DNA from: Pseudomonas sp. BGr12
Lineage (GTDB): Bacteria; Pseudomonadota; Gammaproteobacteria; Pseudomonadales; Pseudomonadaceae
NCBI RefSeq assembly: GCF_030272895.1
Contig: NZ_JALRNF010000009.1
Span: 62,001 to 126,000 of the forward strand
DNA: 64,000 nt
Reading direction: 5' to 3'
The translations under genes were made by a program, and so were the position numbers. Numbering within the stretch: position 1 is the first letter of the stretch; each line of letters begins with the position of its first letter. Under the pieces are notes generated by a model that was not told the DNA's origin, searched no databases, and saw nothing but the letters and a program-made list of their open reading frames with translations. Positions 1,325-19,370 of the stretch are shown here, in pieces.

Positions 1325-1498
1325 CGTCCACTGGCCGGCATCGGGCCCCTCCCTTTGCGCAGCTCAGACGCCACAAGGTTTTGCTTAACAACGTAGTCCT
1401 GAAATACCTGTTGGCACATCCGTTGTTCCAGGCACCTGGACGAGGCAATGCGTCATCAGCGGCAATAAGCCATCTAGCTGCGAGCGAGGCACCACACC

Positions 1499-4891
<3,393 letters not shown>

Positions 4892-4905
4892 GTCGTTAGC
4901 GAAAC

Positions 4906-4926
4906 AGGGGCCGCAAAGCGGCCCCT
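4906..4926 (+). terminator. GC-rich hairpin between oxidase and SCO gene
   Basis: Perfect 9-bp stem (AGGGGCCGC / GCGGCCCCT) with an AAA loop, starting 14 bp after the oxidase stop codon. Only a weak T-rich tail follows, so it may be a leaky terminator or an mRNA-stabilising stem that lowers expression of the downstream SCO-cytochrome gene. Confidence 0.5.
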
Positions 4927-4952
4927 TCAGTCAAACAAGAAAGGATTGCATC

Positions 4953-5939
4953 ATGACCGGCTCATGGCGTGTTCTGCTCGCACTCTCCCTGTTCGCCGCC
5001 AGCATCCCCTTCTGGCCGCTGCAAGCACCCCGCAACGCGAGCGCCGAAGCCGCCACCCCGTGGGGCGCCGACTACTTCCCCAACACCCCGCTGGTGACCC
5101 AGGATGGCCAGCGCGTGCATTTCTTCGACGACCTGATCAAGGACAAGGTGGTCGCGATCAACTTCATCTTCACCGGTTGCTCCGATTCCTGCCCCGTGGA
5201 AACCGCTCGGCTGCGCCAGGTGCAGAAAATCCTCGGTGACAGGGTAGGCAAGGACATATTCCTCTACTCCATCAGCATCGACCCGTACAACGACACACCT
5301 GCCACCCTCAAGCGCTACGCCGAGAAGTTCGGCATCGGCCCCGGCTGGACGTTGCTCACCGGCGAGCCCGATGACATCGAGAAATTACGCCGCAGCCTGG
5401 GCCTCTATATAGAAGGCCTGGAAAACGGCCGCTCCAAGGACCACAACCTGAGCCTGATCATCGGCAACCAGTCCACCGGTCGCTGGATGAAGGCTTCGCC
5501 GTTCGAAAGCCCCTACATCCTTGCCGACCGCCTGGGCAACAGCCTGCACAACTGGAAGCAGGCCAGTCGGATGACCAATGACTACGCCAACGCCCCCGAG
5601 GTACGCCCGCCCAGCACCGGCGAGCAGATCTTCCGCACGCGCTGCTCCTCCTGCCATTCCATCGGCAGCGCCGAGCCCGGCGGCGTGCCAGGCATCGGGC
5701 CTGACCTGCTCGGTGTGACCCGCCAACGCGACCCTCTGTGGCTGGCGCGCTGGCTGAAAGAGCCGGACCAGATGCTCGCCCAGAAGGACCCGCTGGCGAT
5801 GCTGTTGTACGAACAGTACAACCGCTTGGCCATGCCCAACATGCGCCTGGGCGACGTCGAGGTCGCCGCGCTGGTGGCTTACCTGGAAGAGGAAACGGTA
5901 CGGGTGCAGACGCCGCTGGCGGACAGGGAAAAACCATAA
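4953..5939 (+). CDS. SCO1/SenC copper chaperone fused to a cytochrome c domain
   Basis: Periplasmic fusion protein of 328 residues. An N-terminal signal/anchor (LLALSLFAASIPFWPL) is followed by an SCO1/SenC thioredoxin fold with the copper-binding CSDSCP (Cys76, Cys80) and the conserved His near residue 164 (KDHNLS). The C-terminal third is a class I cytochrome c with the heme motif CSSCH (Cys231, Cys234, His235) and a likely Met ligand in LAMPNM. SCO proteins deliver copper to, or reduce thiols of, copper oxidases; the attached heme could supply electrons. The start has an AAAGGA ribosome-binding site. It lies 61 bp after the multicopper oxidase on the same strand, which suggests it serves that enzyme. 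Domain assignments are firm; the partner is inferred. Confidence 0.87.
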   Translation: MTGSWRVLLALSLFAASIPFWPLQAPRNASAEAATPWGADYFPNTPLVTQDGQRVHFFDDLIKDKVVAINFIFTGCSDSCPVETARLRQVQKILGDRVGKDIFLYSISIDPYNDTPATLKRYAEKFGIGPGWTLLTGEPDDIEKLRRSLGLYIEGLENGRSKDHNLSLIIGNQSTGRWMKASPFESPYILADRLGNSLHNWKQASRMTNDYANAPEVRPPSTGEQIFRTRCSSCHSIGSAEPGGVPGIGPDLLGVTRQRDPLWLARWLKEPDQMLAQKDPLAMLLYEQYNRLAMPNMRLGDVEVAALVAYLEEETVRVQTPLADREKP

Positions 5940-5971: not shown

Positions 5972-7291
5972 TCAGAACACATCCAGCGGATACTGAATAA
6001 TGATCCGCACTTGATCGACATCGCCGTCGGCCTGAGCCTTGTTTGCACGGTGGATCGTCTGTTGCGCAACAAGGGAGAGATCCTTCGCCGGACCGCTCTG
6101 AATCACGTACTGCAACTGAAAATCTCTTTCCCAATGCCGCCCGCCGCTCCCGAGCCTTGCGTAATAGGCATAGGCACCCGTGGGGTCTACCTTCGAGTTA
6201 TCGATATGCGAGCCTCGAAGGTAGCGCGTCATAAAGCCCAGTCCTGGCACACCGAGCACAGCAAAATTGAAGTCGTAGCGCAGTTGCCATGATCGCTCAC
6301 CGGGCGAATTGAAGTCCGAATACAATACCGAGTTGCTCAAGTAGATGGAGTCACCGTCTCCAAGGTAGTCGAACGGTTCGTCTCCCTGGATGCGTTGGTG
6401 CGCCAGCATCAGCGAATGCCCCCCTAGCAGCAAGCGCGCGTAAGCACTCCAGCTATCGGTGTCGATCCTGCCTGCCCTCGCAGCCCCTTGATCACGGGTG
6501 CGGTAAAGGTTGGCGCCCACGGTCACGGCGTGATGATCATCGAGTGAGAGGGTCCGGTCCAGGCTGATGTAGGTCTGGTTCCAGACATCCTCGAAACGCG
6601 CCTGGTACAGACTCAGCGACAACCCACCGGCGACGCTGTAGTCACCGCCCAGGTAACTCGCGGAACGGTAGCGGGTGCCACCGTACTCGGTGCTCAGGTC
6701 GTCGTCGTGGTTGCTGCTGGCCTTGTTGCGCGCCGCGTGCAGATGGCCGCCTTGCAGGGTCAGGTTGTCGATGAGCGTGCTGCGCAGCGAGACGCCGCGA
6801 AAGCTCTGCGGCAGCAAACGCCCGTCGCCATAGCGGAACACCGGCGTCACCGGAAACAGGTCCCCTGCCTTGAGTTCAGTGTCGAACGCGCGCAGCTTCA
6901 GCGCGCCGCCGGCGGCCGAGTAGTCCTCCTCGGCGCGGTTGTGGCTGTCCAACGGCAGCAAGTTGGTGCCCGAGGTACCGCCGCCGCTGTCCAGCTTCAA
7001 ACCCAGCAACCCGTGGGTATCAACGCCGACGCCAACCGTCCCTTGGGTGTAGCCGGAGCTGTAGAATGCCTGGAAACCTTGCGCCCACTCTTCGCGATAG
7101 CTTTGCTGGCGCGAGTTGAACACGCCATCGTCACGACTGCGGAAGTCCCGGTTGAAGTAAAAGTTGCGATTGATCAGCCGCAACGTGCTGTCTTCGACGA
7201 AACCCTGCTCGTCGGCGGCCATCAGGGGCAGGCTCAACAGTATCAGGGCGCTTGCACAGAACGCGCGAGGAGTACGGATCGGTTGGGACAC
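5972..7291 (-). CDS. OprD-family outer membrane porin
   Basis: Substrate-specific outer-membrane porin of the OprD/OpdK family, 439 residues, the usual size. The GTG start at 7291 is chosen because AGAGG lies 9 nt upstream and the signal peptide follows at once (FCASALILLSLPLMAADEQ). The mature N-terminus shows the family signature GFVEDSTLRLINRNFYFNRD, and the chain ends in the beta-barrel closing sequence QVRIIIQYPLDVF. It faces the SCO gene convergently and lies 122 bp downstream of a LysR gene on the same strand, with the TGCATGC-N7-GCATGCA palindrome in between. Porins of this family usually pass amino acids or organic acids. Here it is probably the uptake channel for the compound degraded by the genes up to 15.2 kb (inference). 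Confidence 0.9.
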   Translation of the reverse strand: MSQPIRTPRAFCASALILLSLPLMAADEQGFVEDSTLRLINRNFYFNRDFRSRDDGVFNSRQQSYREEWAQGFQAFYSSGYTQGTVGVGVDTHGLLGLKLDSGGGTSGTNLLPLDSHNRAEEDYSAAGGALKLRAFDTELKAGDLFPVTPVFRYGDGRLLPQSFRGVSLRSTLIDNLTLQGGHLHAARNKASSNHDDDLSTEYGGTRYRSASYLGGDYSVAGGLSLSLYQARFEDVWNQTYISLDRTLSLDDHHAVTVGANLYRTRDQGAARAGRIDTDSWSAYARLLLGGHSLMLAHQRIQGDEPFDYLGDGDSIYLSNSVLYSDFNSPGERSWQLRYDFNFAVLGVPGLGFMTRYLRGSHIDNSKVDPTGAYAYYARLGSGGRHWERDFQLQYVIQSGPAKDLSLVAQQTIHRANKAQADGDVDQVRIIIQYPLDVF

Positions 7292-7379
7292 GTCGGCGAA
7301 CCTCTTGTTGTTTTTGTATGAGGAAGCGCCAGTGTTGCCGGCCCGGCCGGGGCCGGACAAACGATCATTTTCAGTGCAG

Positions 7380-7400
7380 TGCATGCCGGATTTGCATGCA
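7380..7400. promoter_or_regulatory. Palindrome TGCATGC-N7-GCATGCA before the porin gene
   Basis: Perfect inverted repeat with 7-bp arms and a 7-bp spacer, 89-109 bp upstream of the porin start. A site with the same arms and the same spacer length lies at 11640-11660 upstream of the MFS operon. The size and symmetry suit a LysR-type binding site. The binding protein is probably one of the two LysR proteins of this cluster (inference). Confidence 0.55.
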
Positions 7401-7413
7401 GTAACGCGGTCTC

Positions 7414-8370
7414 TCAGCGCTGCTCGGCCAGTCCGAGAAAGTCGCGGGTAGCATCGTTGGTGCGCCGGGCGTAGTCGAGAATCCAGTCCTTGAACACCAT
7501 GTGCGGGCGCGAATCTTCCAGTGCCTTGGCGTAGACCAGGTGTTCGACGTGTCCGGTGTTCACCACGTCCCGCACCGGGCGCAGCAGCGTGCCGTTGGCG
7601 AAGTCGGCCAGCGGCGCGACGTAGGCCCACATCAGCACCACCCCCTGCCCGGCAAGGGCCGCCCGGCAGGCGAGGTCGTAGTTGGAAACCGAGAGGGTGT
7701 AGTCGATGCCGCGGGTCTCGCAGCCTGCACGGTTGAACCAGTCCGGCCAGCCCTTGACCGTGCGCAGGTGCTTGACCTCGAAGTCGATCAGTTTTTCCCG
7801 CGACAGGTCGTCAAGGCTATCGATACCACGGCCCTTCAGGTAGGCCGGCGTGCAGGCCGGGAAGATCACTTCCTCGAACAGACCGGTGGAGACGTAGCCG
7901 CCCCGCTGCCCCTGGTCATAGAGGATGGTGAAGTCGGTTTCGTTGTTCTGGATGGCGGCGTAGTCCTCGCCGTCGCCGGCGATCACCCGGACGCGGATGT
8001 CCGGATGAAGGTCCTTGAACTCGGCGATCCCCGGCAGCAGCCAGAAGCTGGCGATCGCCATGCTGGCGCTGATGGTGACAGTGGGGCTGCGGTCGTTCTC
8101 GATGGTTTCCACCGTGCGGCGCAACTCCGCCAGGCTGCGCTCGATCCCGCCCAGCAGCGTCCGTCCGGCCTTGGTCAGGTCGAGGGTCTTGTGGGTGCGG
8201 GTGAACAGCAGCACCCCCATGCTCTCTTCCAGGTGCTTGATCTGCCGGCTCACGGCACTTTGCGAAAGGTTGATCTCCTCCGCCGCCTTGGTGAAGCTCA
8301 GATGCCTGGCGGCCGCTTCGAAGGCTTCCAGGTTCTGCAACGGAGGGAGTCGTTTTCGTGAAATGCTCAT
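7414..8370 (-). CDS. LysR-family transcriptional regulator (GcvA-like)
   Basis: LysR-type regulator of 318 residues, the usual length. The N-terminal winged HTH reads LPPLQNLEAFEAAARHLSFT, then AAEEINLSQSAVSRQIKHLE. The effector domain begins near residue 95 (VTISASMAIASFWLLPGI), in the style of GcvA/AmpR relatives. It starts 24 bp after the FAD-enzyme stop codon and is probably read as the last gene of the MFS-cupin-oxidase unit, with the porin beyond it. It is a paralogue of the broken LysR gene at 11710-12605. A local regulator of the catabolic cluster is the simplest role. Confidence 0.9.
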   Translation of the reverse strand: MSISRKRLPPLQNLEAFEAAARHLSFTKAAEEINLSQSAVSRQIKHLEESMGVLLFTRTHKTLDLTKAGRTLLGGIERSLAELRRTVETIENDRSPTVTISASMAIASFWLLPGIAEFKDLHPDIRVRVIAGDGEDYAAIQNNETDFTILYDQGQRGGYVSTGLFEEVIFPACTPAYLKGRGIDSLDDLSREKLIDFEVKHLRTVKGWPDWFNRAGCETRGIDYTLSVSNYDLACRAALAGQGVVLMWAYVAPLADFANGTLLRPVRDVVNTGHVEHLVYAKALEDSRPHMVFKDWILDYARRTNDATRDFLGLAEQR

Positions 8371-8394
8371 GGTCGCACCAGGGGATTACGCTAA

Positions 8395-9726
8395 TTAATA
8401 CTCCTGCCTCCCGACCCAGCGTTCCTTGGCCAGGTACGCCTTCACGCCGACATCCAGGAAAGGCCTGGGCGGCAGCCTGCTCGGCGCGCCCAGTTCCAGC
8501 ATATCGGCGATCAGCTCGTTTTCTACACCGCAAGCCAGGTCAGCCAAGGTCACGCCGGCGATGGTCTGCTTGGCGATCCCGACACCGTTGCACCCCACCG
8601 CCGCGAAGACGTTGGGTTCGATCTTGCCCCAGCGCGGCGCGCCATTGCGAGTGATGCTGAAGAACCCCATCCAGAAATGTTCCATCGCCACGTCCCCGAG
8701 TTCCGGAAAGCGCGCCAGGAACACCTCCTTGTGCTGCTCGCGGATACGCCCGCGCACACGCTCGTCGACCCGCATGCCCGGGGTGAAATCGAACTGCTGG
8801 CGAATCAGCAGGCGATGATCGCGGGTATAGCGCATGGTCGCCCCGCTGACCGCATTGGCCGGGGTCACGCCCCACTCCTCGACATCGCCGATGCGCGCAC
8901 GCTGCTGCGCGGTCAGCGGCCGGGTCAGGCTGGCGTAAGAGGCAACGTTGAACATCTGCCGCTCGAAGCCGGGCAACTGCGAGGCGCTGCCATTGTTGGC
9001 GAGGATCAGCTGGCGGGCGCTGACTGCGCCGTGGTCGGTGCTGGCGAAAATCATCCGGCCACGCTCCAGGCGGGTCACCGCGCTGTTCTCGAACAGGGTG
9101 ACATTGTCCGGCAGCGAATCCGCCAGCCCGCGGGTCAAAGCCGCGGGATTGAGCAGGATGCAACCTGGTGTGTAGATCCCGGCGTGAAAGAACGAGGTGC
9201 CCAGGCGCCGCGCCAGTTCGGCCTGTTCCAGCCACTCATAGGGCTCGCCGAGGGTCGTAAGCTCCTGGGCGTGCTGGCGCAGCAGGGTCTCGGCCAGCTG
9301 CGGCGCGGCGGCGCAGTGGTACTTGCCCTTCTCGCTCCAGTCGCACTGGATTCCCCGCTCCCTGACGATGCCGTCGAGCCAGGCGATGCCCGCCTTCATC
9401 AGGCGTTTGTAGTTGACCGCCTTTTCCAGCTCGGCAGTGGAGCTGCCAACGTTGTGCGGCACGTCGATGGCGAAGCCGGAGTTGCGCCCGGAGGCATTAT
9501 CGCCGGCCTCGCCCGCTTCCAGCACTACGATGCGCTCGTTGGGACGGTTGTGCGCCAGTCGCCGGGCCGCAGCGAGCCCGGCGTAGCCGGCGCCGATGAT
9601 CAGCCAGTCGGCGTCCAGTTTCTGGCGCAGGGTCGCGTGGGCGCGCCGCGGCGGCAGAATCGCCGACCAGCCGTTGGTGTGGTCGTCGTGGGGTCTGAGT
9701 GTGATGTCCATCCGTTTCGCTTCCAT
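8395..9726 (-). CDS. FAD-dependent oxidoreductase of the DAO/amine oxidase family
   Basis: Flavoenzyme of 443 residues with a Rossmann FAD site (WLIIGAGYAGLAAARRLA, then VVLEAGEAGDNASGRNSGFA) and a C-terminal DAO motif (FAAVGCNGVGIAKQTIAG). This architecture is shared by gamma-glutamylputrescine oxidase (PuuB) and N-methyl amino acid oxidases, which oxidise a C-N bond and pass electrons to O2. The ATG at 9726 has GAGG 6 nt upstream. It lies 7 bp after the cupin gene, in the operon MFS-cupin-oxidase-LysR. In this setting it could remove an N-methyl or amino group after the Rieske enzyme has acted; that order of reactions is inference. Confidence 0.85.
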   Translation of the reverse strand: MEAKRMDITLRPHDDHTNGWSAILPPRRAHATLRQKLDADWLIIGAGYAGLAAARRLAHNRPNERIVVLEAGEAGDNASGRNSGFAIDVPHNVGSSTAELEKAVNYKRLMKAGIAWLDGIVRERGIQCDWSEKGKYHCAAAPQLAETLLRQHAQELTTLGEPYEWLEQAELARRLGTSFFHAGIYTPGCILLNPAALTRGLADSLPDNVTLFENSAVTRLERGRMIFASTDHGAVSARQLILANNGSASQLPGFERQMFNVASYASLTRPLTAQQRARIGDVEEWGVTPANAVSGATMRYTRDHRLLIRQQFDFTPGMRVDERVRGRIREQHKEVFLARFPELGDVAMEHFWMGFFSITRNGAPRWGKIEPNVFAAVGCNGVGIAKQTIAGVTLADLACGVENELIADMLELGAPSRLPPRPFLDVGVKAYLAKERWVGRQEY

Positions 9727-9733
9727 GGTTGCC

Positions 9734-10075
9734 TCACGCCTGCGGCGGGGTAATGACGAAGAAGACCTTCGCTTGCGAGCCGAAGTACTTCACGGCTGTG
9801 TTCCTGGGAATCCGCAGGGTCGTCTCGGGACCACCCTCGAAACGCTCGCCGGACGCCAGCTGGAAACCGAAAGTGCCTTCGAGCACGATCAGCACCTCGT
9901 CGTAGTTCAGCGTCTTGTAGGGCGACTCGTCGCCGTCCCAGCGGGCGAAACCGGCCAGCAGCGGCCCATCATCGTCCAGGGGGATGGACCAACCCATCTC
10001 GACCCGCGAATTGCCAGAAAGCGGACGCTGGCTGTAGAGCACCTGTGCTGCTTTCACGCTGAGTGGCTGGTTCAT
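9734..10075 (-). CDS. Small single-domain cupin protein (EutQ-like)
   Basis: 113-residue cupin. The beta-barrel core is visible in ALNYDEVLIVLEG-like sequence (LNYDEVLIVLEGTFGFQL, then LRIPRNTAVKYFG), resembling the C-terminal cupin of EutQ and related proteins. The usual metal-binding His pattern is poor, so it may bind a ligand rather than act as an enzyme. Its ATG overlaps the stop of the MFS gene as ATGA (10072-10075), showing translational coupling, and the FAD oxidase starts 7 bp beyond its stop. Its function is unknown beyond membership of the operon. Confidence 0.8.
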   Translation of the reverse strand: MNQPLSVKAAQVLYSQRPLSGNSRVEMGWSIPLDDDGPLLAGFARWDGDESPYKTLNYDEVLIVLEGTFGFQLASGERFEGGPETTLRIPRNTAVKYFGSQAKVFFVITPPQA

Positions 10076-11379
10076 CGTGTTTCCCTTTTCATATGGCGGG
10101 CGCAGGCCCAGTAGTGGTAAGTCGCCCAGAAACCAGTGAAGGTGCAACCCAGCAGCACGTAGCGCAGGGACTCCTGCGGATTGCCCAGGCGTGGCGCGAC
10201 CACGTCCGACAGCAGGCCCACCAGTTGCGGGGCGATCGCCAGGTTGGCGATGTTGGCGGTGAACAGCAGGATCGCCGAGCCCTTGGCACGCATGCCGGCG
10301 GGATAGAGGTTCTGCAGCAGGCCAATGGAAGGGCCGATGTAGATGTAGGTGATGGGCACGAACAGCCAAAGCAGCACGTGGACCAGCTCCAGCCGGGTGG
10401 TGGCGAACAGGGCGATGGAGAACAGCGTGCCGAGCAGCGTGGTCCAGGCCACGAAGCTGGATTGTTGGTACATGGCCTTGCTGCGCAGCAGGAGCATCAC
10501 CAGCACGGTGATGACCATCATTGCGGTGCCGGCGATGCCGTGGATCGGACCGAGCATGGCGCCCGCCTCGCCCACCGTCATCGAGTAGGTGCGCACCAGG
10601 AATGAGGTGGCCCACCAGAGAATACCCCAGCCCCAGAAGGTGACGACGGTGGCCCCGGCGATCAGGTGGAACAGCGCCCGGTGCCGGACCGTGTAGCGCA
10701 GCGCCTCGCGGAAGCTGGTGGCTTCGCTGTCGCGGCTCTCGCCCTGGTCATGCACCCGCTTCGGCTCGCGGATGCACAGCCACACCAGCAGGGCGAACGG
10801 CAGTCCACACAGGCCGAACACCAATAGTGTGGTGCGCCAGCCGTAGGCGTCGTTCAGGTAACCCGCCCCCGAAGCGCCGAACCAGGCGCCGACACTGGCA
10901 CCGATGCCGTAGACCGACAGGGCGAAGGCGCGCAACTTGGGACGGAACTTGTCAGCGAGGATCGAGTGGCTGGGCGGCGTGCCGCCCGCCTCGCCGACGC
11001 CGACACCGATACGGGCCAACAGCAGCTGCCAGAAACTGCTGCTCAGGCCGCAGAGCAGGGTCATCGCCGACCACACCGCTACCGCGGTACCGATCATGCG
11101 CTTGCGGTTGGTGCGGTCGGCCAGGGCGCCCAGCGGCAGGCCGGCGGCAACATAGAAGATCGCCAGGGCCACGCCGGTGAGAAAGCCCACCGAAGCGTCG
11201 CTGAGCTGGAACTCGTGCTTGATCGGTTCGATCAGGGTGGAGAGGACATAACGGTCGGCGATATTGATCGCGTACACCGCAGTGAGGATGAAAAGCGTGG
11301 TCCAGGCGCCGGAACTGGCGACCACAGACGAGGTAGTGGGCGACAGAGCGCCACTGATGCTGTTCGACTGCACGGACAT
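10072..11379 (-). CDS. MFS transporter
   Basis: Major facilitator permease of 435 residues with 12 predicted membrane helices. The family loop motif is visible as GALADRTNRKRMIG after helix 2. Helix 1 begins WTTLFILTAVYAINIADRYV. It most resembles the spinster-like/ACS group of organic-anion carriers, but the substrate is not readable. The start at 11379 (MSVQSNS) has GGAGG 5 nt upstream, so the longer open frame beginning at 11412 is rejected. It is the first gene of an operon with the cupin (4-nt overlap), the FAD oxidase and a LysR gene, and is the likely inner-membrane partner of the porin at 5972-7291. Confidence 0.88.
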   Translation of the reverse strand: MSVQSNSISGALSPTTSSVVASSGAWTTLFILTAVYAINIADRYVLSTLIEPIKHEFQLSDASVGFLTGVALAIFYVAAGLPLGALADRTNRKRMIGTAVAVWSAMTLLCGLSSSFWQLLLARIGVGVGEAGGTPPSHSILADKFRPKLRAFALSVYGIGASVGAWFGASGAGYLNDAYGWRTTLLVFGLCGLPFALLVWLCIREPKRVHDQGESRDSEATSFREALRYTVRHRALFHLIAGATVVTFWGWGILWWATSFLVRTYSMTVGEAGAMLGPIHGIAGTAMMVITVLVMLLLRSKAMYQQSSFVAWTTLLGTLFSIALFATTRLELVHVLLWLFVPITYIYIGPSIGLLQNLYPAGMRAKGSAILLFTANIANLAIAPQLVGLLSDVVAPRLGNPQESLRYVLLGCTFTGFWATYHYWACARHMKRETR

Positions 11380-11709
11380 ATAGACCTCCAGCCGCTCGGC
11401 GCGCCATGGCAACGCCGCGAGCCTTTTTTATTGTTTGCGGGGCGAATGGGTAGCAGTGGATACGGCGCAATCAGCCTGATCGTCTGTGGCGATCAGCGGC
11501 GGTCTGACAGGAAAGGACGTGCGGCTTCATGGATTTCCCTCGTACCTTGTTCTTGTTGGAAGGGATGGCTGCGGGTGTTGCAGGCAGGTCCAACATACGC
11601 GGGGCATCAGGGCGGCAAAAGCGCAATTTTTTCCTGCGTTGCATGCGCCTGACGCATGCAAATTCGTTGAGAGCGCTGTAGTTGCGATGGTTGCCTGAAA
11701 AAATGGCAA
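11380..11709. promoter_or_regulatory. 330-bp gene-free region with TGCATGC palindrome (MFS operon promoter)
   Basis: No credible gene is seen. The region lies between the MFS start and the 3' end of the broken LysR gene, both on the minus strand, so it should hold the promoter of the MFS-cupin-oxidase operon. At 11639-11661 there is a perfect inverted repeat TTGCATGCG-CCTGA-CGCATGCAA. Its core TGCATGC-N7-GCATGCA (11640-11660) matches the element before the porin gene. It sits about 260-280 bp upstream of the MFS start codon. Confidence 0.55.
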
Positions 11710-12605
11710 TCAGCAGCCAGGTTGTGATGCGGCGATCCAGTCCCACAGGGTTTGCGCCATCGGTGTCAGTTCGCGGGAGGCTGGAAAGGCAATGTATTCA
11801 CCCTGCCCGGTCTTCAGGGTTCCTCGCACGCCCGACACAACCGCTGGCTGTGGAACTCGTCGGGCAGCGCCTCGGCCCAGGCCAGCGCAACGCCCTCGCC
11901 GGCCAGCGCCGCCTTGATCGCCAGGTCGTAGCTGGAGACGCGGATGATCGAGCCACGGTGCTGGTCCAGGAATCCCACCTGGCGCATCCACTGGCGGGTC
12001 GAAAGGGCCGCGGGGTCGTTGCTTTCCAGTTCGATAAGGTCGCAGCGAGCCAGGTCGGCCAGGCCCTGGATCTGGTTGGCAGCGCGAAATTGCGGGGTGC
12101 AGATGGCGAAGATTTCTTCCTCGGCGATGCGCTGGACGCACAGGTCTTTCCACTGACCCTCACCGTAGAGAATGGCGAAATCGGTATCGGTGAAATCCAG
12201 CTTCAGGCGATCCTGGGCGCCCACCACCCGCACGTTGATCTGCGGGTACAGCTTGCGGAAGCGAGAAACCAGCGGGATGACCAGATAGCTGGCGATACCG
12301 GAACTGGCGCTGATGGACAGGCTCGGCGCCAGCGCGCTGTCGATCTGCTGCACGGCTTCCTTGATGCATTGCAGGCTCTGGGTCACCGCCCGGTACAGCA
12401 CGGCGCCGCTGGCGGTAAGGATCACCTCGTTGCCCTTGCGCTCGAACAGCGGCGTGCCGAGGCTCTGTTCGAGGCGCTTGATCTGTTTGCTGACCGCGCT
12501 CTGGGTGAGATGGAGTTCGCTGGCCGCCCGGGTGAAGGTGCCGAGCCGCACCACCGCGTCGAAGGCCACGACGGCACTCAGGGGTGGCAACTTCTTCGCG
12601 CTCAT
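11710..12605 (-). pseudogene. LysR-family regulator with a 1-nt frameshift near its 3' end
   Basis: The first 263 codons (12605-11814) give a normal LysR protein: HTH LPPLSAVVAFDAVVRLGTFT and LTQSAVSKQIKRLE, and effector domain from SISASSGIASYLVIPL. The frame then stops early after HSQRLCRACEEP. In the adjacent frame the missing C-terminus continues, VSGVRGTLKTGQGEYIAFPA, ending in LWDWIAASQPGC at 11710. This aligns with the end of the paralogue at 7414-8370 (VRDVVNTG, then DWILDYARR). One base appears to be missing near 11840. This is either a real truncation that removes the last 35 or so residues of the effector domain, or a sequencing error. The gene would otherwise be the second regulator of the catabolic cluster. 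Confidence 0.8.
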
Positions 12606-12689
12606 GGATAGTGTTCCCCCGCTCAGGCGCTGTATCGGAAGCGTCCGAGGGTAGCGACAAATCCACGGCTGGGCAATTTGCCGCGGTGC

Positions 12690-13742
12690 TCAACAATCGA
12701 GGGTTACATCCCCCTGGGGGATACCGCAGCAAGACAGGACATAGCCCTCGGCCAGTTCTTCGTCGCTGATGCCGCCTTGGTGTGTCATCGTCACCTCACC
12801 GGACAGCTTCAACACCCGGCAGGTGCCGCACAACCCCATGCCACAGGCCTTGGGAATATGTAGCCCGACCCGGCCCGCTGCGGCGTGCAGGGTTTCTCCT
12901 GGGGCGACCCGAACGCTGTGCCCGCTGCGGGAGAAGTTTACCTGGTGGCCTTCAGTGGTCCGCAGTGACACCGGCGCTACCTGAGCGACGAACGCTTCCT
13001 CGTGATAACGGCCCATGTCGAAGCCCGCGGCCTCCAGCATCTGCCTGACCGCCGCCATGTAGGGCGCCGGGCCACAGCAGAAGACCTCGCGCTGGAGGAA
13101 ATCGGCCGCGATCAGGTCGAGCATCGGTCGTGTGAAATAGCCGCGATAGCCGGACCACGCTTCGCCTTTCTCGTAGCGCTCGCACACCAGGTGCAGCTTG
13201 AACGCCTCGCTGCGGGCGGCCATCCGCCGCAGTTCGTCGTGGTAGATGATGTCCTTCGGCGAGCGGGCGCTGTGCACGAAGACCAGGTCAACCGGCTCAT
13301 GGGTGTCGAACAGCCAGCGGGCCATGGACATCACCGGGGTGATGCCGACGCCGCCGGAGAGCAGCAACACCTTGTCGGCGGGGAAGTCGATGGCGTTGAA
13401 CCGCCCCGCCGGGCCGTGGACGACCAACGGGTCGCCCGCCCTCAGGTTATCGTGCAGCCAGTTGGACACCTTGCCCCCCGGCACGCGCTTGATGGTCAGG
13501 GAAAAGCTGTACGGCTGCGACGGCGAACTGGAGAGCGTGTAGGAGCGCATAAGCTGTTCACCATCGATCTCCAGCTCCAGGGTGACGAACTGCCCGGGCT
13601 TGAAGAAAAACAGCGTCGGTGCTTCGGCCTTGAAGCAGAAGGTCCGCACGTCATGGGTTTCCTCGACGACTGCGACGCAGCGCACGCCATGCCGGCCGTT
13701 GCTCCAGATCCGCGAAGTGGTGGATTGCACGAAAGTATTCAT
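12690..13742 (-). CDS. Rieske oxygenase reductase: FAD/NAD domains plus C-terminal 2Fe-2S (GbcB-like)
   Basis: Electron-transfer partner for an oxygenase, 350 residues. Domain order: FAD-binding barrel (RSYTLSSSPS near residue 85), NAD(P)-binding domain (LLLSGGVGITPVMSM), then a plant-type 2Fe-2S ferredoxin domain with ACGMGLCGTCRV and the last Cys in VLSCCG. This order matches GbcB and CntB, the reductases of glycine betaine and carnitine oxygenases. The ATG at 13742 (MNTFVQST) is taken as start, not the longer frame running across the promoter. It is divergent from the GbcA-like oxygenase gene, 250 bp away, and the two presumably form one enzyme. Confidence 0.9.
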   Translation of the reverse strand: MNTFVQSTTSRIWSNGRHGVRCVAVVEETHDVRTFCFKAEAPTLFFFKPGQFVTLELEIDGEQLMRSYTLSSSPSQPYSFSLTIKRVPGGKVSNWLHDNLRAGDPLVVHGPAGRFNAIDFPADKVLLLSGGVGITPVMSMARWLFDTHEPVDLVFVHSARSPKDIIYHDELRRMAARSEAFKLHLVCERYEKGEAWSGYRGYFTRPMLDLIAADFLQREVFCCGPAPYMAAVRQMLEAAGFDMGRYHEEAFVAQVAPVSLRTTEGHQVNFSRSGHSVRVAPGETLHAAAGRVGLHIPKACGMGLCGTCRVLKLSGEVTMTHQGGISDEELAEGYVLSCCGIPQGDVTLDC

Positions 13743-13992
13743 ATCGGTCCCGCTGGTTATTGTTGTTCTGCCGTACAGGCTGCGAGCTCGAGTATCGAGG
13801 CGTCCCGCCGGGCGCCGCAAAGGATGTTTCGGCATGCGCCGATGCCGCCGTGGAATGGCCCCGGATGCCCATGAAAAAAGGAATGGCGGTCATGCCGGAG
13901 TTTCGTTTGGCGGCGCCCCCGCCCTGCCCTATAACAACCCCGGCCACATAACAACAACGCCCGAACCGGCGACACTCGATGAGGAACCGCAC
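13743..13992. promoter_or_regulatory. Divergent promoter region of the reductase/oxygenase pair
   Basis: 250 bp between two divergent start codons. A short inverted repeat CGGCAT-N6-ATGCCG is at 13830-13847. It contains a single GCATGC half that recalls, but does not match, the TGCATGC-N7-GCATGCA sites elsewhere in the cluster. No clear sigma-54 element was recognised. Confidence 0.35.
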
Positions 13993-15228
13993 ATGGCAGG
14001 CTGCAGCCACGGCATCACCCCGACCGACCATTCCTTCACCGCCTTGGCCGACCTCTACGGCAAGTGCCAGCGCGGCCATACCCTGCCGCAGGCGCTGTAC
14101 ACCTCCCAGGCTGTGTTCGATTTCGAGATGAAAGCGGTCTTCGCCCGCGCCTGGCTGCAGGCCGGACATCTGGCCGAAGTGCCCCGGGTCGGCGACTACA
14201 TCACCGCGCAAGTGGGCAAGACCTCGGTGGTGATCATCCGCGAGGCGGAAAGCTCGGTCCGTGCGTACTTCAACACCTGTCGCCACCGCGGCGCGCTGAT
14301 CTGTACCAGTGACAAGGGCTCGGCGCGGCGCCTGGTCTGCCCCTACCACCAGTGGACCTACGACCTCAAAGGCAACCTGATCTTCGCCCGCAACATGCCC
14401 GCCGATTTCGATCCGGGTCGGCACAGCCTGATTCCCGTCCATTGCGAAGTGGTGGCCGGCGTGATCTTCATTGCCCTGTCGGATGACGTGCCCGACTTCA
14501 GCGAATTGCGCCGGGCGCTCGGACCGATGCTGGCGCCCCACGACCTGGAAAACGCCAAGGTCGCCCATGCGGCGGTGCTGCCCGAATACGCCAACTGGAA
14601 ACTGGTGATGGAAAACGGCCGCGAGTGCTACCACTGCAGCGCGCGGCATCCGGAACTGCTGTCCTCCTTCCGCGACCCCACCGAGGACGACTACTTCGAA
14701 GGCCTGCCGCAGTGGATGGTGGACTTCGAAGCGACCTGCCGGGCCAACGGGTTGATCAATGGCCCGGCCGAGGGCGCCTGGTTCGACATCCTGCGCTTCC
14801 CGATCAAGGATGGCGTCGATTCCCTGACCCTGGATGGCCGCCTGGCCTGTGCGAAGCCACTGATTCCGGGCGGCGAAGGCAATATCGGCACCCTGCGCTG
14901 GGCCACCGAGCCGAGCGCGTTCAGCCATGCGCTGCGCGACCACGCCTTCACCTTCGAGGCCTGGCCGATCGACGCCGGCACCACCCACGTGCGAGCTAAA
15001 TGGCTGGTACACAAGGACGCGCTGGAAGGCCGCGACTACGAGCTGGCGCACCTCACCGCGCTATGGAACGCCACCAACGACCAGGACAAGTGGCTGGCTG
15101 AAAACAACTTCCTCGGCGTGCAGGGTGCCGGTTATGTACCGGGCCCGTATTCACAGAATGACGAGAAGAAGGTCATCGACTTCGTTGACTGGTATCTCGA
15201 TACGGTCCGCAGCTATCTGCATAGATGA
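13993..15228 (+). CDS. Rieske non-heme iron oxygenase alpha subunit (GbcA-like)
   Basis: Aromatic-ring-hydroxylating-type oxygenase of 411 residues. The Rieske 2Fe-2S centre is CRHRG (Cys96, His98) and CPYHQW (Cys116, His119). The mononuclear iron site is in ENGRECYHCSARHPEL (His214, His219). The sequence follows GbcA, the glycine betaine N-demethylase oxygenase, at several diagnostic places (ANWKLVMENGRECYHC, KWLVHKDALEG, WNATNDQDKWLAENN, PGPYS). A related N-demethylation or C-N cleavage of a betaine-like substrate is therefore likely. It differs enough in the substrate-pocket half that glycine betaine itself is not assured. The start MAGCSHGI follows the divergent promoter region. Confidence 0.9.
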   Translation: MAGCSHGITPTDHSFTALADLYGKCQRGHTLPQALYTSQAVFDFEMKAVFARAWLQAGHLAEVPRVGDYITAQVGKTSVVIIREAESSVRAYFNTCRHRGALICTSDKGSARRLVCPYHQWTYDLKGNLIFARNMPADFDPGRHSLIPVHCEVVAGVIFIALSDDVPDFSELRRALGPMLAPHDLENAKVAHAAVLPEYANWKLVMENGRECYHCSARHPELLSSFRDPTEDDYFEGLPQWMVDFEATCRANGLINGPAEGAWFDILRFPIKDGVDSLTLDGRLACAKPLIPGGEGNIGTLRWATEPSAFSHALRDHAFTFEAWPIDAGTTHVRAKWLVHKDALEGRDYELAHLTALWNATNDQDKWLAENNFLGVQGAGYVPGPYSQNDEKKVIDFVDWYLDTVRSYLHR

Positions 15229-15302: not shown

Positions 15303-16226
15303 TTACATTTTGCTACCAGGCAGCACCAGACCCGCAGCGAGCGCGTCCAGCAAAGCACTGACCTTGGGTAGTGCCTGACGACTTTTGATCCAGACCAGAT
15401 TGATCGCCAGACCGTCGGTGGCCAGATGGGGAAGCACTTGCACCAGTGTCCCATCCTCAAGCTGACGGTTCACCAACCACGTCGGCAACTGCGCAATACC
15501 ACATCCCGCCAGTACTGCCGTCACCTGGCCTTCTCCATCGCCCAGCACAAACCGCGCGGGCATGACCCTTCGTTCCGTTTCGCCGGGTCGACTCCCCGAA
15601 AATCGCCACGGACTTACCGTGCCATCCGCCCGGCCATAAGCGATGCATTGGTGATGTTCCAGGTCGTGAGCATTCACAGGTGTGCCGTACTTGCTCAAAT
15701 AGGCAGGTGATGCGCAAAAGATATGCCGCTCACTGCCCAGATAGCGATGCCCAAGTGCGGGCGGCCAAACGTCAGAGCCACCGACGCGCACGGCGATATC
15801 GACGCCCTCCTCGACCAGGTCGATGAACCGGTCGGAAAACGAAATGTGTGGCATCAGCAAGGCATGATCCTGGGCGAACCGCAGAATGACCGGCAACGCC
15901 TGCAAGCGACCGAAAGCCGCGGGTAGATCGATGCGAATCCTGCCGCGCGGCTCGGTGTTTTCGGCGTGCAGCGACAACTCGGCTTCTTCAAGGCTGGCCA
16001 GCACATCCGTGCACGTGCGATAGAACGCCGAGCCCGCATCCGTGACTGTCAAACTGCGAGTTGTTCGATTGAACAACCGGATCCCGATCCTGCTCTCCAG
16101 CCGAGCAATGCTTTTGCTGATGGCCGAGCCCGTCAGATTCATCCGCTCGGCAGCGGCCTTGAAGCTGCCTGAATCCACGACGCAGACAAACACATCGATA
16201 CCCTTCAAGCGCTCGGAGGAGAACAT
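15303..16226 (-). CDS. LysR-family transcriptional regulator (CrgA/AaeR-like)
   Basis: 307-residue LysR protein. The start at 16226 (MFSSERLKGIDVFVCVVDSG) has AAGGAA 5 nt upstream, so the longer frame from 16385 is rejected. The HTH reads AAAERMNLTGSAISKSIARLE. The effector domain contains RFIDLVEEGVDIAVRVG, typical of the large LysR group that controls an adjacent oxidoreductase. It is divergent from the NmrA-like gene with 118 bp between the start codons and probably regulates it. Confidence 0.9.
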   Translation of the reverse strand: MFSSERLKGIDVFVCVVDSGSFKAAAERMNLTGSAISKSIARLESRIGIRLFNRTTRSLTVTDAGSAFYRTCTDVLASLEEAELSLHAENTEPRGRIRIDLPAAFGRLQALPVILRFAQDHALLMPHISFSDRFIDLVEEGVDIAVRVGGSDVWPPALGHRYLGSERHIFCASPAYLSKYGTPVNAHDLEHHQCIAYGRADGTVSPWRFSGSRPGETERRVMPARFVLGDGEGQVTAVLAGCGIAQLPTWLVNRQLEDGTLVQVLPHLATDGLAINLVWIKSRQALPKVSALLDALAAGLVLPGSKM

Positions 16227-16344
16227 ACTAATTCCTTTATTGATGAATCTGATTCCTTTTACTGGGTAAAATCTATCGTAAATCAGACCTGTTTTCATCG
16301 GTAAGCTGGCGACCGAAGACATCAACCAACCTACAGGTATGTTC

Positions 16345-17232
16345 ATGACCCAGCACAAACCGACGATCCTCGTCACCGGCGCCACCGGACAAATCGGCAG
16401 CTACACGCTGCGCTGCCTGCTGGAAAACGACTCCATCACGCCAGTGGCAGCCGTGCGTTCAGCCGCCAAAGCCGAGGCTTTCGAAGCCCAGGGCGTTCGC
16501 ACGGTCATTGTTGATTTTGATAGAGAGGAGACACTGGCCCCTGCCCTGCAAGGTATCGACCGCGCCTTTCTCATGACCGGCTACACCGTGGACATGCTGC
16601 GCCAGAGCAAGGCATTTCTCGATAGTGCGAAACAGGCCGGGGTGAAACACATCGTGCATCTCGGGGCTTGCGGACGTGACGACACCACCATAGCGCATTG
16701 GGCCTGGCACCAATTCGTGGAACGCTACATTGAATGGTCAGGGTTCTCCTTCACGCACTTGCGTCCGGAAGTCTTCATGCAAAACCTGCTCAGCTACGAC
16801 GGCACCCAAGCGGTGAACGCCGGAATCATTCAGCAATTCACCGGCGATGCAGCGTTCAGTTGGGTCGATGGCGAAGACGTCGCGGCAGTAGCTGCGCAAA
16901 CGCTGTTGCACCCGGACAAACACGCAGGAAGGACCTACCGCCTGGGCTACGATGTAAAGTCCTACGATGAAGTCGCGGCGATCATGAGTGAGTCGTTGGG
17001 GCAACCATTCCGCTATGAAGCTTTGCCCGCAGAAGTGTTCCTGGAAAACATGCGGGCGGCGGGCGCCGAGATGGCGTACATGAGTTGCGTGTATGAAAAC
17101 TTCAAGCGCATCGCCGCTCGGGCTATCCCAGGGGTCGAGGACACGTTTGACAATTTTGCGCAGATTACAGGCCGCGAGCCTGTTCGATGGAAAGAGTTCG
17201 TGCAAAAGCATCGCAGCGCATTCGCCTACTGA
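16345..17232 (+). CDS. NmrA-like NAD(P)-binding oxidoreductase
   Basis: Atypical short-chain dehydrogenase of 295 residues with the N-terminal nucleotide motif ILVTGATGQIGSYTL and a KHIVHLGACGRDD strand, as in the quinone-reductase/NmrA group (QorB/YtfG relatives). The second ATG, at 16345, is preferred because AGG stands 7 nt before it; the ATG at 16339 is too close to that AGG. It is divergent from the LysR gene at 15303-16226, a common arrangement for this enzyme family. The substrate is unknown, possibly quinones or reactive carbonyls. Confidence 0.85.
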   Translation: MTQHKPTILVTGATGQIGSYTLRCLLENDSITPVAAVRSAAKAEAFEAQGVRTVIVDFDREETLAPALQGIDRAFLMTGYTVDMLRQSKAFLDSAKQAGVKHIVHLGACGRDDTTIAHWAWHQFVERYIEWSGFSFTHLRPEVFMQNLLSYDGTQAVNAGIIQQFTGDAAFSWVDGEDVAAVAAQTLLHPDKHAGRTYRLGYDVKSYDEVAAIMSESLGQPFRYEALPAEVFLENMRAAGAEMAYMSCVYENFKRIAARAIPGVEDTFDNFAQITGREPVRWKEFVQKHRSAFAY

Positions 17233-17355: not shown

Positions 17356-18072
17356 TCACTTGCTGGCGAGCACGTGATTAGCCATCGGGCAGCTCTGGGC
17401 ATTAAGGAAGCGCGATTTCTTCAGCCAGTCCTGCTGCGGGTAATAGGCGAACACATAACTACCGCGCTGCAGCGTATCGATCAACTTGCCGGCAATGGCC
17501 GGTCGAACGGCAGGACACCCCTGGCTGCGGCCCAGGCGACCGAGACCGGAAACGACCTTGGGATCGGCATACGCGGCGGCATGCATGACAATCGCCCGCG
17601 ACATGCTGTTGTCGTTGAACCCCGGCTCCAGCCCCTGCAGGCGCAGCGAGCGGCCGTGCTTGCCGCTGTAGGTCTGACCGGTCTCATACAGGCCGATGGA
17701 GGACTGGAAGCTGTTCGGGGTGTTGGAGAACGCAGTCGGCACATCGGCGCCGCTGTTCTTGCCATGGGCCACCCACTCCTCGAACAACAACTTCCTGGCG
17801 CGCAGGTCGAACACCCACAGGCGTTTGTCACGCGATGCCTTGGAGTAATCGATGACCGTGAGCAATTTGTCCGCGTCGCTGTCGCTGGCGCACGCATAGG
17901 CGGTGAGTGCCAGCTTCAGGGCCGAAAGGCTGGCGTTCGGCGCCAGTTGCTGCAGTTCGGTGGCGCTCGGCAGGGTCTGGGCCTGGGCGGTGTGCCAGGC
18001 GCTGAGGAAAAACAGGCCAACAGTGGCTACTGAGAGCCGGACGGCTCCCCGCAATGGGTCGAACATCGACAT
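17356..18072 (-). CDS. Murein L,D-transpeptidase-like protein (YkuD_2 family)
   Basis: Exported protein of 238 residues with a signal peptide ending in TAQAQ (about residue 31). The catalytic Cys lies in GRSQGCPAVRP near residue 193, and a conserved His in AIVMHAAAYA near 170, as in the murein L,D-transpeptidase catalytic-domain family (PF13645). The function in the family is remodelling of peptidoglycan or lipoprotein linkage in the periplasm; the exact reaction of this subfamily is poorly known. A second, classical L,D-transpeptidase lies 263 bp upstream on the same strand. The intergenic bases 18073-18335 show no gene. Confidence 0.85.
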   Translation of the reverse strand: MSMFDPLRGAVRLSVATVGLFFLSAWHTAQAQTLPSATELQQLAPNASLSALKLALTAYACASDSDADKLLTVIDYSKASRDKRLWVFDLRARKLLFEEWVAHGKNSGADVPTAFSNTPNSFQSSIGLYETGQTYSGKHGRSLRLQGLEPGFNDNSMSRAIVMHAAAYADPKVVSGLGRLGRSQGCPAVRPAIAGKLIDTLQRGSYVFAYYPQQDWLKKSRFLNAQSCPMANHVLASK

Positions 18073-18335
18073 GGTTTATCCTGTTCAAAACCTGTCTGCG
18101 ATCGAAAGCTAGTGGGCCGTACGGCGTTAATCCGCACGGACTTTCTCGCTTGCTTGCTTCGCTGTTCGCCTACTGCTTTTTTGTCTTGTACGGCGCTGGC
18201 TCACGAAGTCGTCAACAGGTGCTACGTCCTAATGGTCGGTTTTGCTTTGCGTTGTTACGGCACGCGTTCAAAGCGAAAATCGGTTTGTGTGAAGTCAAAG
18301 GCCACTACTTTGCTTGATTTTTACAGGGTTGCCGA

Positions 18336-19370
18336 TCATTTCTTGACCAATGGTTTAGATTCTTCACTGTCTTCGGTGCTGACCACGGTGAAATTGCCAT
18401 TGCTGCGGGTATCCCGGGTCGACGCCCAGTCGGTGATCACCAGCATGGTGCCGATGTCCATCGCCGAGCGTAAATGACGGCGGAATTCCGGACTCATGTT
18501 CAATTGGCCCAATTGCTCAAGCGGTGTATCCCCATACTCCGGGTTGCTCAGCGCAACCGCCGACCAGCGTAATGGCTGTGCGGCGTCGAGTGCCATGGCG
18601 GATGGCTTTTGCAACAGCGAATACACCGCCATTCCACTGCGATGCCGGCCATTTTCAAGCGACAGCGCGGGCGCCGAGCCGATCAACTGGCCACCACGAA
18701 ACGCATAGGCGCGCAGGTCGGCGCGACTGATCAGGATCGACAACGGCCCCGCTGTCGGGTCCGGATCGTTCCAGAACTGCTGGTTGTTCAATACCAGCGG
18801 TCCTTGGGCCTTGCCCTCGTTGACCGTAGGCGCGAGCACACCGGGGTGGTTGACCTCCACCGGTGCGCTATGGGTATCGGAAACGATCACGGTGGTCGAA
18901 CTGAAACCGGTGACGCCATACAGCTTCTTGGCGAATTCGAGCGGCAGGCGCACGCAACCATGGGAGGCGGGGTAGCCCGGAAGATGGCCAGCGTGCAGGG
19001 CAATGCCGTCCCAGGTCAGCCGTTCCATGTAGGGCATCGGCGCGCTGTTGTAGAGGCTGGATTTATGCTCGACCTTTTTCTGCAGGATGCTGAATACCCC
19101 GGTAGGGGTTTCCCGGCCTGGCTTGCCGCTGCTCACGGTGCTGACGCCGATGGCGATGCCATTGCGATAGACGTAGGCGCGTTGCTCGGTGAGGCTGACC
19201 ACCACGGTCACCGGCCCTACCGGCGAGACCTGCGGGTACCAGAGAAACTGGCCAGGCTTGAGACTGTCGAGCTGGGCCCTGAGTTGGGCCGGGCTGGGCA
19301 CCTGCAGCGGAGCCGCTTCGACCAAGGCGGCGGCAAGTAACAGACCCAGCGCGAGCGGTAGATGCATCAT
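18336..19370 (-). CDS. L,D-transpeptidase (ErfK/YbiS/YkuD family)
   Basis: Periplasmic L,D-transpeptidase of 344 residues. The signal peptide is LALGLLLAAALVEAAP. The YkuD active site is complete: HAGHLPGYPASHGCVRLP, with the catalytic Cys and His near residues 149-167. A C-terminal region of about 150 residues follows the catalytic domain and contains a second SILISRADLRAYAFRGGQL strand set that resembles a degenerate YkuD half. The enzyme would form 3-3 crosslinks or attach proteins to peptidoglycan. It is probably co-oriented with, but not tightly coupled to, the YkuD_2 gene at 17356-18072. Confidence 0.88.
   Translation of the reverse strand: MMHLPLALGLLLAAALVEAAPLQVPSPAQLRAQLDSLKPGQFLWYPQVSPVGPVTVVVSLTEQRAYVYRNGIAIGVSTVSSGKPGRETPTGVFSILQKKVEHKSSLYNSAPMPYMERLTWDGIALHAGHLPGYPASHGCVRLPLEFAKKLYGVTGFSSTTVIVSDTHSAPVEVNHPGVLAPTVNEGKAQGPLVLNNQQFWNDPDPTAGPLSILISRADLRAYAFRGGQLIGSAPALSLENGRHRSGMAVYSLLQKPSAMALDAAQPLRWSAVALSNPEYGDTPLEQLGQLNMSPEFRRHLRSAMDIGTMLVITDWASTRDTRSNGNFTVVSTEDSEESKPLVKK

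Follow-up and report, generated by a model that had tools for sequence, protein, structure and literature searches.

We analysed a 64,000-nucleotide stretch of contig NZ_JALRNF010000009.1 of Pseudomonas sp. BGr12 (positions 62,001 to 126,000; hereafter the window, to which all coordinates refer). Eight genes were identified at 5972-15228, seven on the minus strand followed by a Rieske oxygenase gene on the plus strand. Every gene named there by an initial annotation was confirmed: a porin, two related LysR regulators, a DAO-type flavoenzyme, a cupin, an MFS carrier, a reductase and the oxygenase. We consider the block probably to be an accessory set of genes, complete in itself, for the catabolism of a quaternary-ammonium compound; the likeliest candidate is a betaine derived from an amino acid larger than glycine. 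Its genes and sites are as follows.

5972-7291, minus strand: OprD-family outer-membrane porin, GTG start assumed (Pfam OprD 505 bits, gathering score 25).
7380-7400: 21-bp dyad TGCATGC-N7-GCATGCA upstream of oprD, exact; same in genome G363.
7414-8370, minus strand: LysR-A, a GcvA-like regulator (88-89% identical orthologs in genomes G050 and G363).
8395-9726, minus strand: DAO-family flavin adenine dinucleotide (FAD) amine oxidoreductase (Pfam DAO 172 bits; 85-87% in G050 and G363).
9734-10075, minus strand: EutQ-like cupin of 113 amino acids (Pfam EutQ 23.2 bits; 79-81% in G363 and G050).
10072-11379, minus strand: MFS carrier (Pfam MFS_1 146 bits; 85-87% in G050 and G363).
11640-11660: second copy of the 21-bp dyad (TGCATGC-N7-GCATGCA), preceding the operon of MFS, cupin, DAO and LysR-A; the match is exact here and in G363 and G050.
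11814-12605, minus strand: LysR-B, a GcvA-like regulator with a shortened reading frame (79% orthologs in G363 and G050).
12690-13742, minus strand: GbcB-type ferredoxin-NAD(P)H reductase (NCBIfam GbcB 583 bits, cut-off 500; GbcB tree).
13743-13992: promoter region from which reductase and oxygenase diverge; an alignment of the three genomes shows short conserved blocks in it.
13993-15228, plus strand: Rieske oxygenase of 411 amino acids, placed by tree and marker residue in a Gly/Ala clade adjoining GbcA and Stc2.

The MFS and cupin genes overlap by 4 bases and are followed by gaps of 7 (cupin to DAO) and 24 bases (DAO to LysR-A); because of this end-to-end packing the four genes are read as one operon. 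The reductase and oxygenase genes diverge across a 250-base gap. The two regulators are related, the LysR-B of the window being 39% identical to the LysR-A of G363.

The oxygenase carries the full set of features of the quaternary-ammonium oxygenases (group V). Its Rieske ligands C96, H98, C116 and H119 are invariant in 60 of 60 rows, and E211, C212, H214, C215, H219 and D365, which include the 2-His-1-Asp iron ligands, the bridging Glu211 and the Cys212/Cys215 pair, are identical in all 239 aligned rows. A bridging glutamate and a Cys-X-X-Cys motif by the iron are given as marks of this group in PMC7948474 and PMC10952381. The former source separates the group by the residue at CntA position 203, which is Tyr or Phe in group Va (CntA, Cmo, OxyBAC) and Asn in group Vb (GbcA, BmoA, Stc2). 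The corresponding residue here is Gly209, preceding the RECYHC motif, and belongs to neither subgroup. CntA shares the bridging glutamate and the Cys-X-X-Cys motif with the cluster enzyme but, like YeaW (motif DNYLECYHC), differs from it at position 203; the CntA chains score 132-136 bits against the cluster oxygenase, compared with 331 bits for Stc2.

To the true GbcA of its own genome the oxygenase is approximately 40% identical, and to the GbcA-type genes of the genus 40-43%. With the NCBIfam GbcA model it scores 408 bits, below the cut-off of 670, as do its orthologs (411 and 420), whereas the genome's own GbcA scores 802. In a tree built with the marker site masked and with Escherichia coli YeaW as outgroup, its clade is separate from GbcA and the stachydrine demethylase Stc2 (support 100/99) and is nested inside neither, as the initial annotation had proposed to check by phylogeny. 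Model score and tree together rule out GbcA as the identity of the oxygenase; of the earlier description, an oxygenase very like GbcA beside a GbcB-like reductase, the second half stands and the first does not.

The marker residue is Gly or Ala in all 120 listed homologs (the best 120 of many more), and the 239 aligned sequences divide into 148 with Gly or Ala and 91 with Asn at this position. This alignment leaves out L011, in which the marker motif was not parsed, and the near-duplicates L081, L106, L111 and L112. Its two groups are defined by the marker residue, so that the perfect split at that site holds by definition; independent support comes from the trees, on which the residue changes only once and one of which was built with the site masked. 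In a 75-row tree the 46 Gly/Ala rows and the 29 Asn rows lie on opposite sides of one branch, in keeping with a single switch. Other positions also split cleanly, for instance Phe310 (148/148) versus Trp (91/91), and the Gly/Ala group has Trp263, Trp303 and Phe245 in place of other residues. Stc2, encoded on pSymA of Sinorhizobium meliloti, lies on the Asn side of the tree, has Trp where the clade has Phe310, and has other partners. The changes from Trp to Phe, from Phe or Leu to Ala and from Asn to Gly suggest space in the pocket for a compound bulkier than glycine betaine. Records that contain members of the Gly/Ala clade bear the names of Pseudomonas, Burkholderia, sphingomonads and further Alphaproteobacteria. 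Some homologs at 49-56% identity are labelled "glycine betaine catabolism A" in their source, a label that the present evidence does not support. Another Asn-type Rieske oxygenase, accompanied by a divergent LysR gene, occurs in genus relatives at L082, L086, L102 and L107; no reductase relative appears in the short sequences fetched around it, and the L086 enzyme, the one tested, also falls below the GbcA cut-off (502 versus 670 bits).

The reductase, in addition to passing the GbcB model, is nested in the gammaproteobacterial GbcB clade (100/99). The pair resembles GbcAB of Pseudomonas and Chromohalobacter in being a two-component Rieske system with divergent genes, the same reductase family and the same metal ligands, and departs from it in the oxygenase, for which identity, model score, clade and the Gly in place of Asn before RECYHC all differ. 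An oxygenase scan gave a sample of 80 loci, 58 of Asn type, 21 of Gly/Ala type and one (L011) unparsed. Within the stretches fetched (E ≤ 1e-10), a reductase relative was found at 55/58 Asn-type loci versus 0/21 Gly/Ala-type loci, and a relative of the MFS carrier at 9/21 Gly/Ala-type loci (seven of them at 44% identity or more) versus 0/58 Asn-type loci. An oxygenase of one clade therefore stands beside a reductase of another lineage, and the pair is a mosaic. The cluster reductase of G050 is 77% identical to the true GbcB of the window's genome and 69% to the window's cluster reductase. Whether each lineage recruited its reductase separately is not established, since a single clade of cluster reductases is not rejected (approximately unbiased test, p 0.478).

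The AlphaFold2 model of the flavoenzyme (predicted local distance difference test score 91.3) has a predicted fold that matches glycine oxidase, dimethylglycine dehydrogenase and sarcosine oxidase. The protein shares its fold and Pfam family with these amine oxidases and with L-pipecolate oxidase AmaA, but falls below the NCBIfam cut-off of all 11 matched models, the best scores being 137 versus 632.8 for TIGR03329 (aminophosphonate oxidoreductase) and 122 versus 600 for AmaA. A search of PDB sequences with it returned nothing useful. The cupin narrowly passes the Pfam EutQ gathering score of 21, and the longer open frame scores 20.1. EutQ cupins of Arthrobacter and Mycobacterium have been proposed, from gene position, to participate in methylated-amine oxidation (PMC5023230, in its accessible part); they too are small and lie beside amine oxidation genes, but these are Tmo, Tmd and Mao, and no Rieske partner is mentioned in that part of the source. 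Among solved chains the porin comes closest, by sequence, to Porin D (364 bits) and to OpdC, a histidine porin (356 bits).

The block behaves as a unit. G363 and G050 keep its gene order, with identities to the window of 69-89%, and the three genomes bear three genus codes; the oxygenase copies are 82-85% and the reductase copies 69-70% identical to those of the window, and oprD is in place in G363 (77%). The flanking operon, whose absence from most carriers would have spoken against the initial annotation, is therefore present in both other genomes found to carry the oxygenase, with oprD missing beside one. The cluster is rare and accessory in the sampled genomes. The oxygenase was found at E ≤ 1e-125 in 3/398 family genomes (the window's own, G000, together with G363 and G050). 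Other samples gave it in 1/79 genomes of the genus of G363 and 1/18 of that of G050 (G363 and G050 themselves), and in 1/369 genomes of the class sample (the window's own). In a genus sample of 25 it occurred in the window's genome only, the other 24, one of the same species, giving GbcA-like matches of 41-43%. A phylum sample at the looser threshold of 1e-113 gave 4/398, the other three being 45-47% identical and all of the ENARECYHC type. A scan of genome contigs for the oxygenase revealed none above 51% identity among the matches listed. The 153 plasmid records with a match included none with the oxygenase at 60% or more, and the DNA of the block matched only as scraps of 1-2%.

Flavoenzyme orthologs (E ≤ 1e-110) were present in 2/198 family genomes, the window's and G050, both of them oxygenase carriers; G363 is not among these matches, though its cluster copy holds the gene. 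Six of the 120 listed oxygenases apparently share a contig with one of 81 flavoenzymes, as judged by equal longest-contig size, down to 53-57% identity, each list giving the best 120 of many more. These apparently shared contigs suggest that the linkage of oxygenase and flavoenzyme is old.

The dyad TGCATGC-N7-GCATGCA has the T-N11-A form known for LysR regulators. Exact matches to its 14 fixed bases lie at two places in the window, approximately 260 bases before the MFS start and approximately 90 bases before oprD. G363 has the dyad before both genes, and G050, which has no oprD beside the cluster, before MFS alone. A search of 24 whole genomes gave two exact dyads in the window's genome, two in G363 and one each in G050 and G256; the remaining 20 had none, and the reversed pattern used as a control was absent from all 24. 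In 1.94 Mb of other fetched loci no dyad with zero or one mismatch was found, and ten with two mismatches. Gene order alone would be insufficient to link the porin to the rest; it is the dyad before both oprD and the MFS operon that ties it to the operon. The shorter GCATGCGYC was rejected as an operator common to all promoters (5 matches versus 5.2 expected), and it is the full dyad that stands out.

We also clustered by their neighbours 24 Gly/Ala-type loci, including two Pseudomonas copies; genes were picked by length, so that the counts are lower bounds. Alphaproteobacterial loci contain a pyridoxal phosphate (PLP) enzyme of the cystathionine gamma-synthase family in at least 10 cases (representative 511 bits, PRK07049 cut-off 504), sarcosine oxidase-like flavoproteins (alpha in at least 14 and at least 11, beta in at least 14, gamma in at least 8) and a LysR gene in at least 9. 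All flavoprotein representatives score below the cut-off (alpha 100 and 990 versus 1164, beta 137 versus 529, gamma 39 versus 144), and the sarcosine oxidase names are therefore to be taken at family level. Such neighbours point to N-methyl amino acids as possible substrates. L002, L003, L005, L014 and L128 pair a Gly/Ala-type oxygenase with sarcosine oxidase-like flavoproteins, with the PLP enzyme in L002, L005, L014 and L128, and a plasmid example is found among the alphaproteobacterial loci; this looks like an undescribed pathway.

The flavoenzyme family, which recurs together with EutQ cupins or RidA, has a quaternary-amine enzyme nearby in 5/11 loci examined, counting the window's lineage once; nine plasmid records among these loci were selected from 58 listed so as to give a varied set. 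A Rieske gene nearest to YeaW (27% identity, Tyr at the marker), BCCT carriers and a rubredoxin-like flavoprotein accompany the family in Pseudomonas sp. MPC6 and Oceanisphaera, the rubredoxin part being our reading of the Oceanisphaera sequence. An Agrobacterium 1D1609 plasmid (L149 1-11233) combines formaldehyde-glutathione genes, an ABC carrier, a DAO flavoenzyme, RidA, an Asn-type Rieske oxygenase and a reductase, and in G661 the gene occurs with an MttB-family gene. No such enzymes lie in the stretches fetched from Paracoccus (two records), Tistrella, Pantoea (two records) and Acinetobacter schindleri. Two plasmids, which according to their records come from Antarctic bases (L146 2943-8709 and L147 2349-8120), show a row of a BCCT carrier, a YeaW-nearest Rieske oxygenase, an aldehyde dehydrogenase, flavoproteins and a EutQ-type cupin.

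From its gene content the cluster probably enables growth or metabolism of its host on some N-methylated compound. The substrate would cross the outer membrane via the OprD porin and the inner membrane via the MFS carrier. Electrons would pass from NAD(P)H through the GbcB-type reductase to the Rieske cluster and on to the iron, and the oxygenase would hydroxylate one N-methyl group, which would leave as formaldehyde. We infer that the amine left behind, tertiary or secondary, is then oxidised by the DAO flavoenzyme, presumably with assistance from the EutQ-like cupin, either by further demethylation or by deamination. LysR-A (or LysR-B) would act on the dyads before the MFS operon and oprD, and the other regulator probably controls the divergent oxygenase and reductase promoters. 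The initial interpretation, one pathway for an unstudied betaine or N-methylated compound, is in this way partly supported: synteny, co-occurrence and the common dyad bear out the single pathway, and the suggested substrate fits the data as an inference.

Several observations weigh against this proposal. The whole cluster was seen in three genomes only, one of which (G050) has a dehydrogenase gene where oprD would be expected beside the cluster. A flavoenzyme relative at 50% identity, the sole other match in 340 class genomes, is found in G661, where the oxygenase is absent; DAO-EutQ pairs occur in Paracoccus and Tistrella, where the fetched sequence contains no Rieske gene, and the flavoenzyme relatives of Dickeya and Pectobacterium (54-59%; P0147, P0148, P0157, P0160 and P0201) are known by protein alone. 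Alphaproteobacterial loci of the Gly/Ala clade have neighbours different from those of the Pseudomonas cluster, and we recognised no assayed member of the clade in the open-access literature searched. The three cluster reductases do not group together, although the same test does not reject one clade. The dyad is missing from the oxygenase/reductase gap, and in G256, a genome without the oxygenase, it lies beside another LysR gene (L145 9280-9300), between that gene (34% identical to LysR-A) and an MFS carrier-amidohydrolase pair; it therefore marks a type of LysR and not this pathway alone. Finally, LysR-B looks damaged, ending approximately 32-42 residues before the ends of its orthologs while the DNA that follows still aligns; the early end may be a frameshift or other real change, or an error of the draft assembly.

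Four other explanations were weighed against the proposed betaine unit. A second route of glycine betaine demethylation, redundant with GbcAB, would agree with a reductase that passes the GbcB model and with a divergent pair like the genome's own gbcAB. A complete gbcAB (802 and 688 bits, both over the cut-offs) is already present in that genome, however, and the cluster oxygenase fails the GbcA model, belongs to another clade and differs cleanly at several positions, Phe310 among them, so that we regard redundancy as quite improbable. The rarity of the cluster and its possession of a carrier and porin would also suit the detoxification or degradation of a synthetic quaternary ammonium disinfectant, as in OxyBAC, itself the Rieske oxygenase of a Pseudomonas (PMC7225539) that degrades benzalkonium. 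We find this hardly credible: compared by its published description, OxyBAC clusters with CntA, its residue at CntA position 203 being Phe (PMC7948474), and the Gly209 found here argues against OxyBAC as the identity of the oxygenase.

The eight genes might instead be two independent neighbouring modules, one of MFS, cupin, DAO and LysR-A with oprD and another of oxygenase, reductase and LysR-B. By layout these are separate transcription units, the dyad is found on the amine-oxidase operon side only, and DAO-EutQ pairs exist elsewhere without a nearby Rieske gene. The order is nevertheless kept in three genomes of three genus codes, the flavoenzyme orthologs of the family sample occur only in oxygenase carriers, the two genes apparently share contigs down to 53% identity, and MFS relatives also lie near alphaproteobacterial Gly/Ala-type oxygenases, all of which makes chance neighbourhood unlikely. 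We likewise doubt that the oxygenase acts on something other than a quaternary amine, such as an aromatic or tertiary N-methyl compound. It lacks the Asn of GbcA and Stc2, its Trp263, Trp303, Phe245 and Phe310 may reshape the pocket for a quite different substrate, and one source labels homologs as 3-phenylpropionate dioxygenase; on the other hand, the cluster has no beta-subunit gene, the group V marks are intact, and amine-oxidase partners are present both here and in the Alphaproteobacteria.

A broader and distinctly speculative scheme can also be drawn, to which we give little weight. The Gly/Ala clade would be a third branch of group V, with a pocket opened by the iron and rimmed by aromatic residues, which demethylates betaines of larger amino acids. 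In the Alphaproteobacteria, the accompanying sarcosine oxidase-like subunits and PLP gamma-lyase-like enzyme would match an amino acid that carries a leaving group at the gamma position, for example trimethylhomoserine, the headgroup of betaine lipids in algae and fungi; in Pseudomonas, the cluster would be a variant with a borrowed GbcB reductase, ending in DAO-type oxidation.

The two branches of group V described in PMC7948474 are told apart by one pocket residue, and it is at this residue that the Gly/Ala branch differs. Since the Pseudomonas cluster unites oxygenase, reductase, carrier, porin and flavoenzyme, it offers a practical handle for finding the substrate, and it places the EutQ-type cupin in a recurrent setting of N-methyl-amine breakdown.

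Directly beyond the oxygenase lies a third LysR gene (LysR-C, 15303 to approximately 16223; its closest model is YafC), which diverges from a gene for an NmrA-family reductase, the pair spanning 15303-17232. The pair was left out of the cluster because the copies in G363 and G050 have no counterpart at that place, a 32% identical LysR of G050 being located elsewhere. Two adjacent L,D-transpeptidase (YkuD) genes follow at 17356-19370. On the other side, window positions 53-5939 encode an outer-membrane efflux protein, a multicopper oxidase of 1130 amino acids whose C-terminal domains are Ig-like, and a SCO1-cytochrome c fusion protein; together they apparently form a separate unit.

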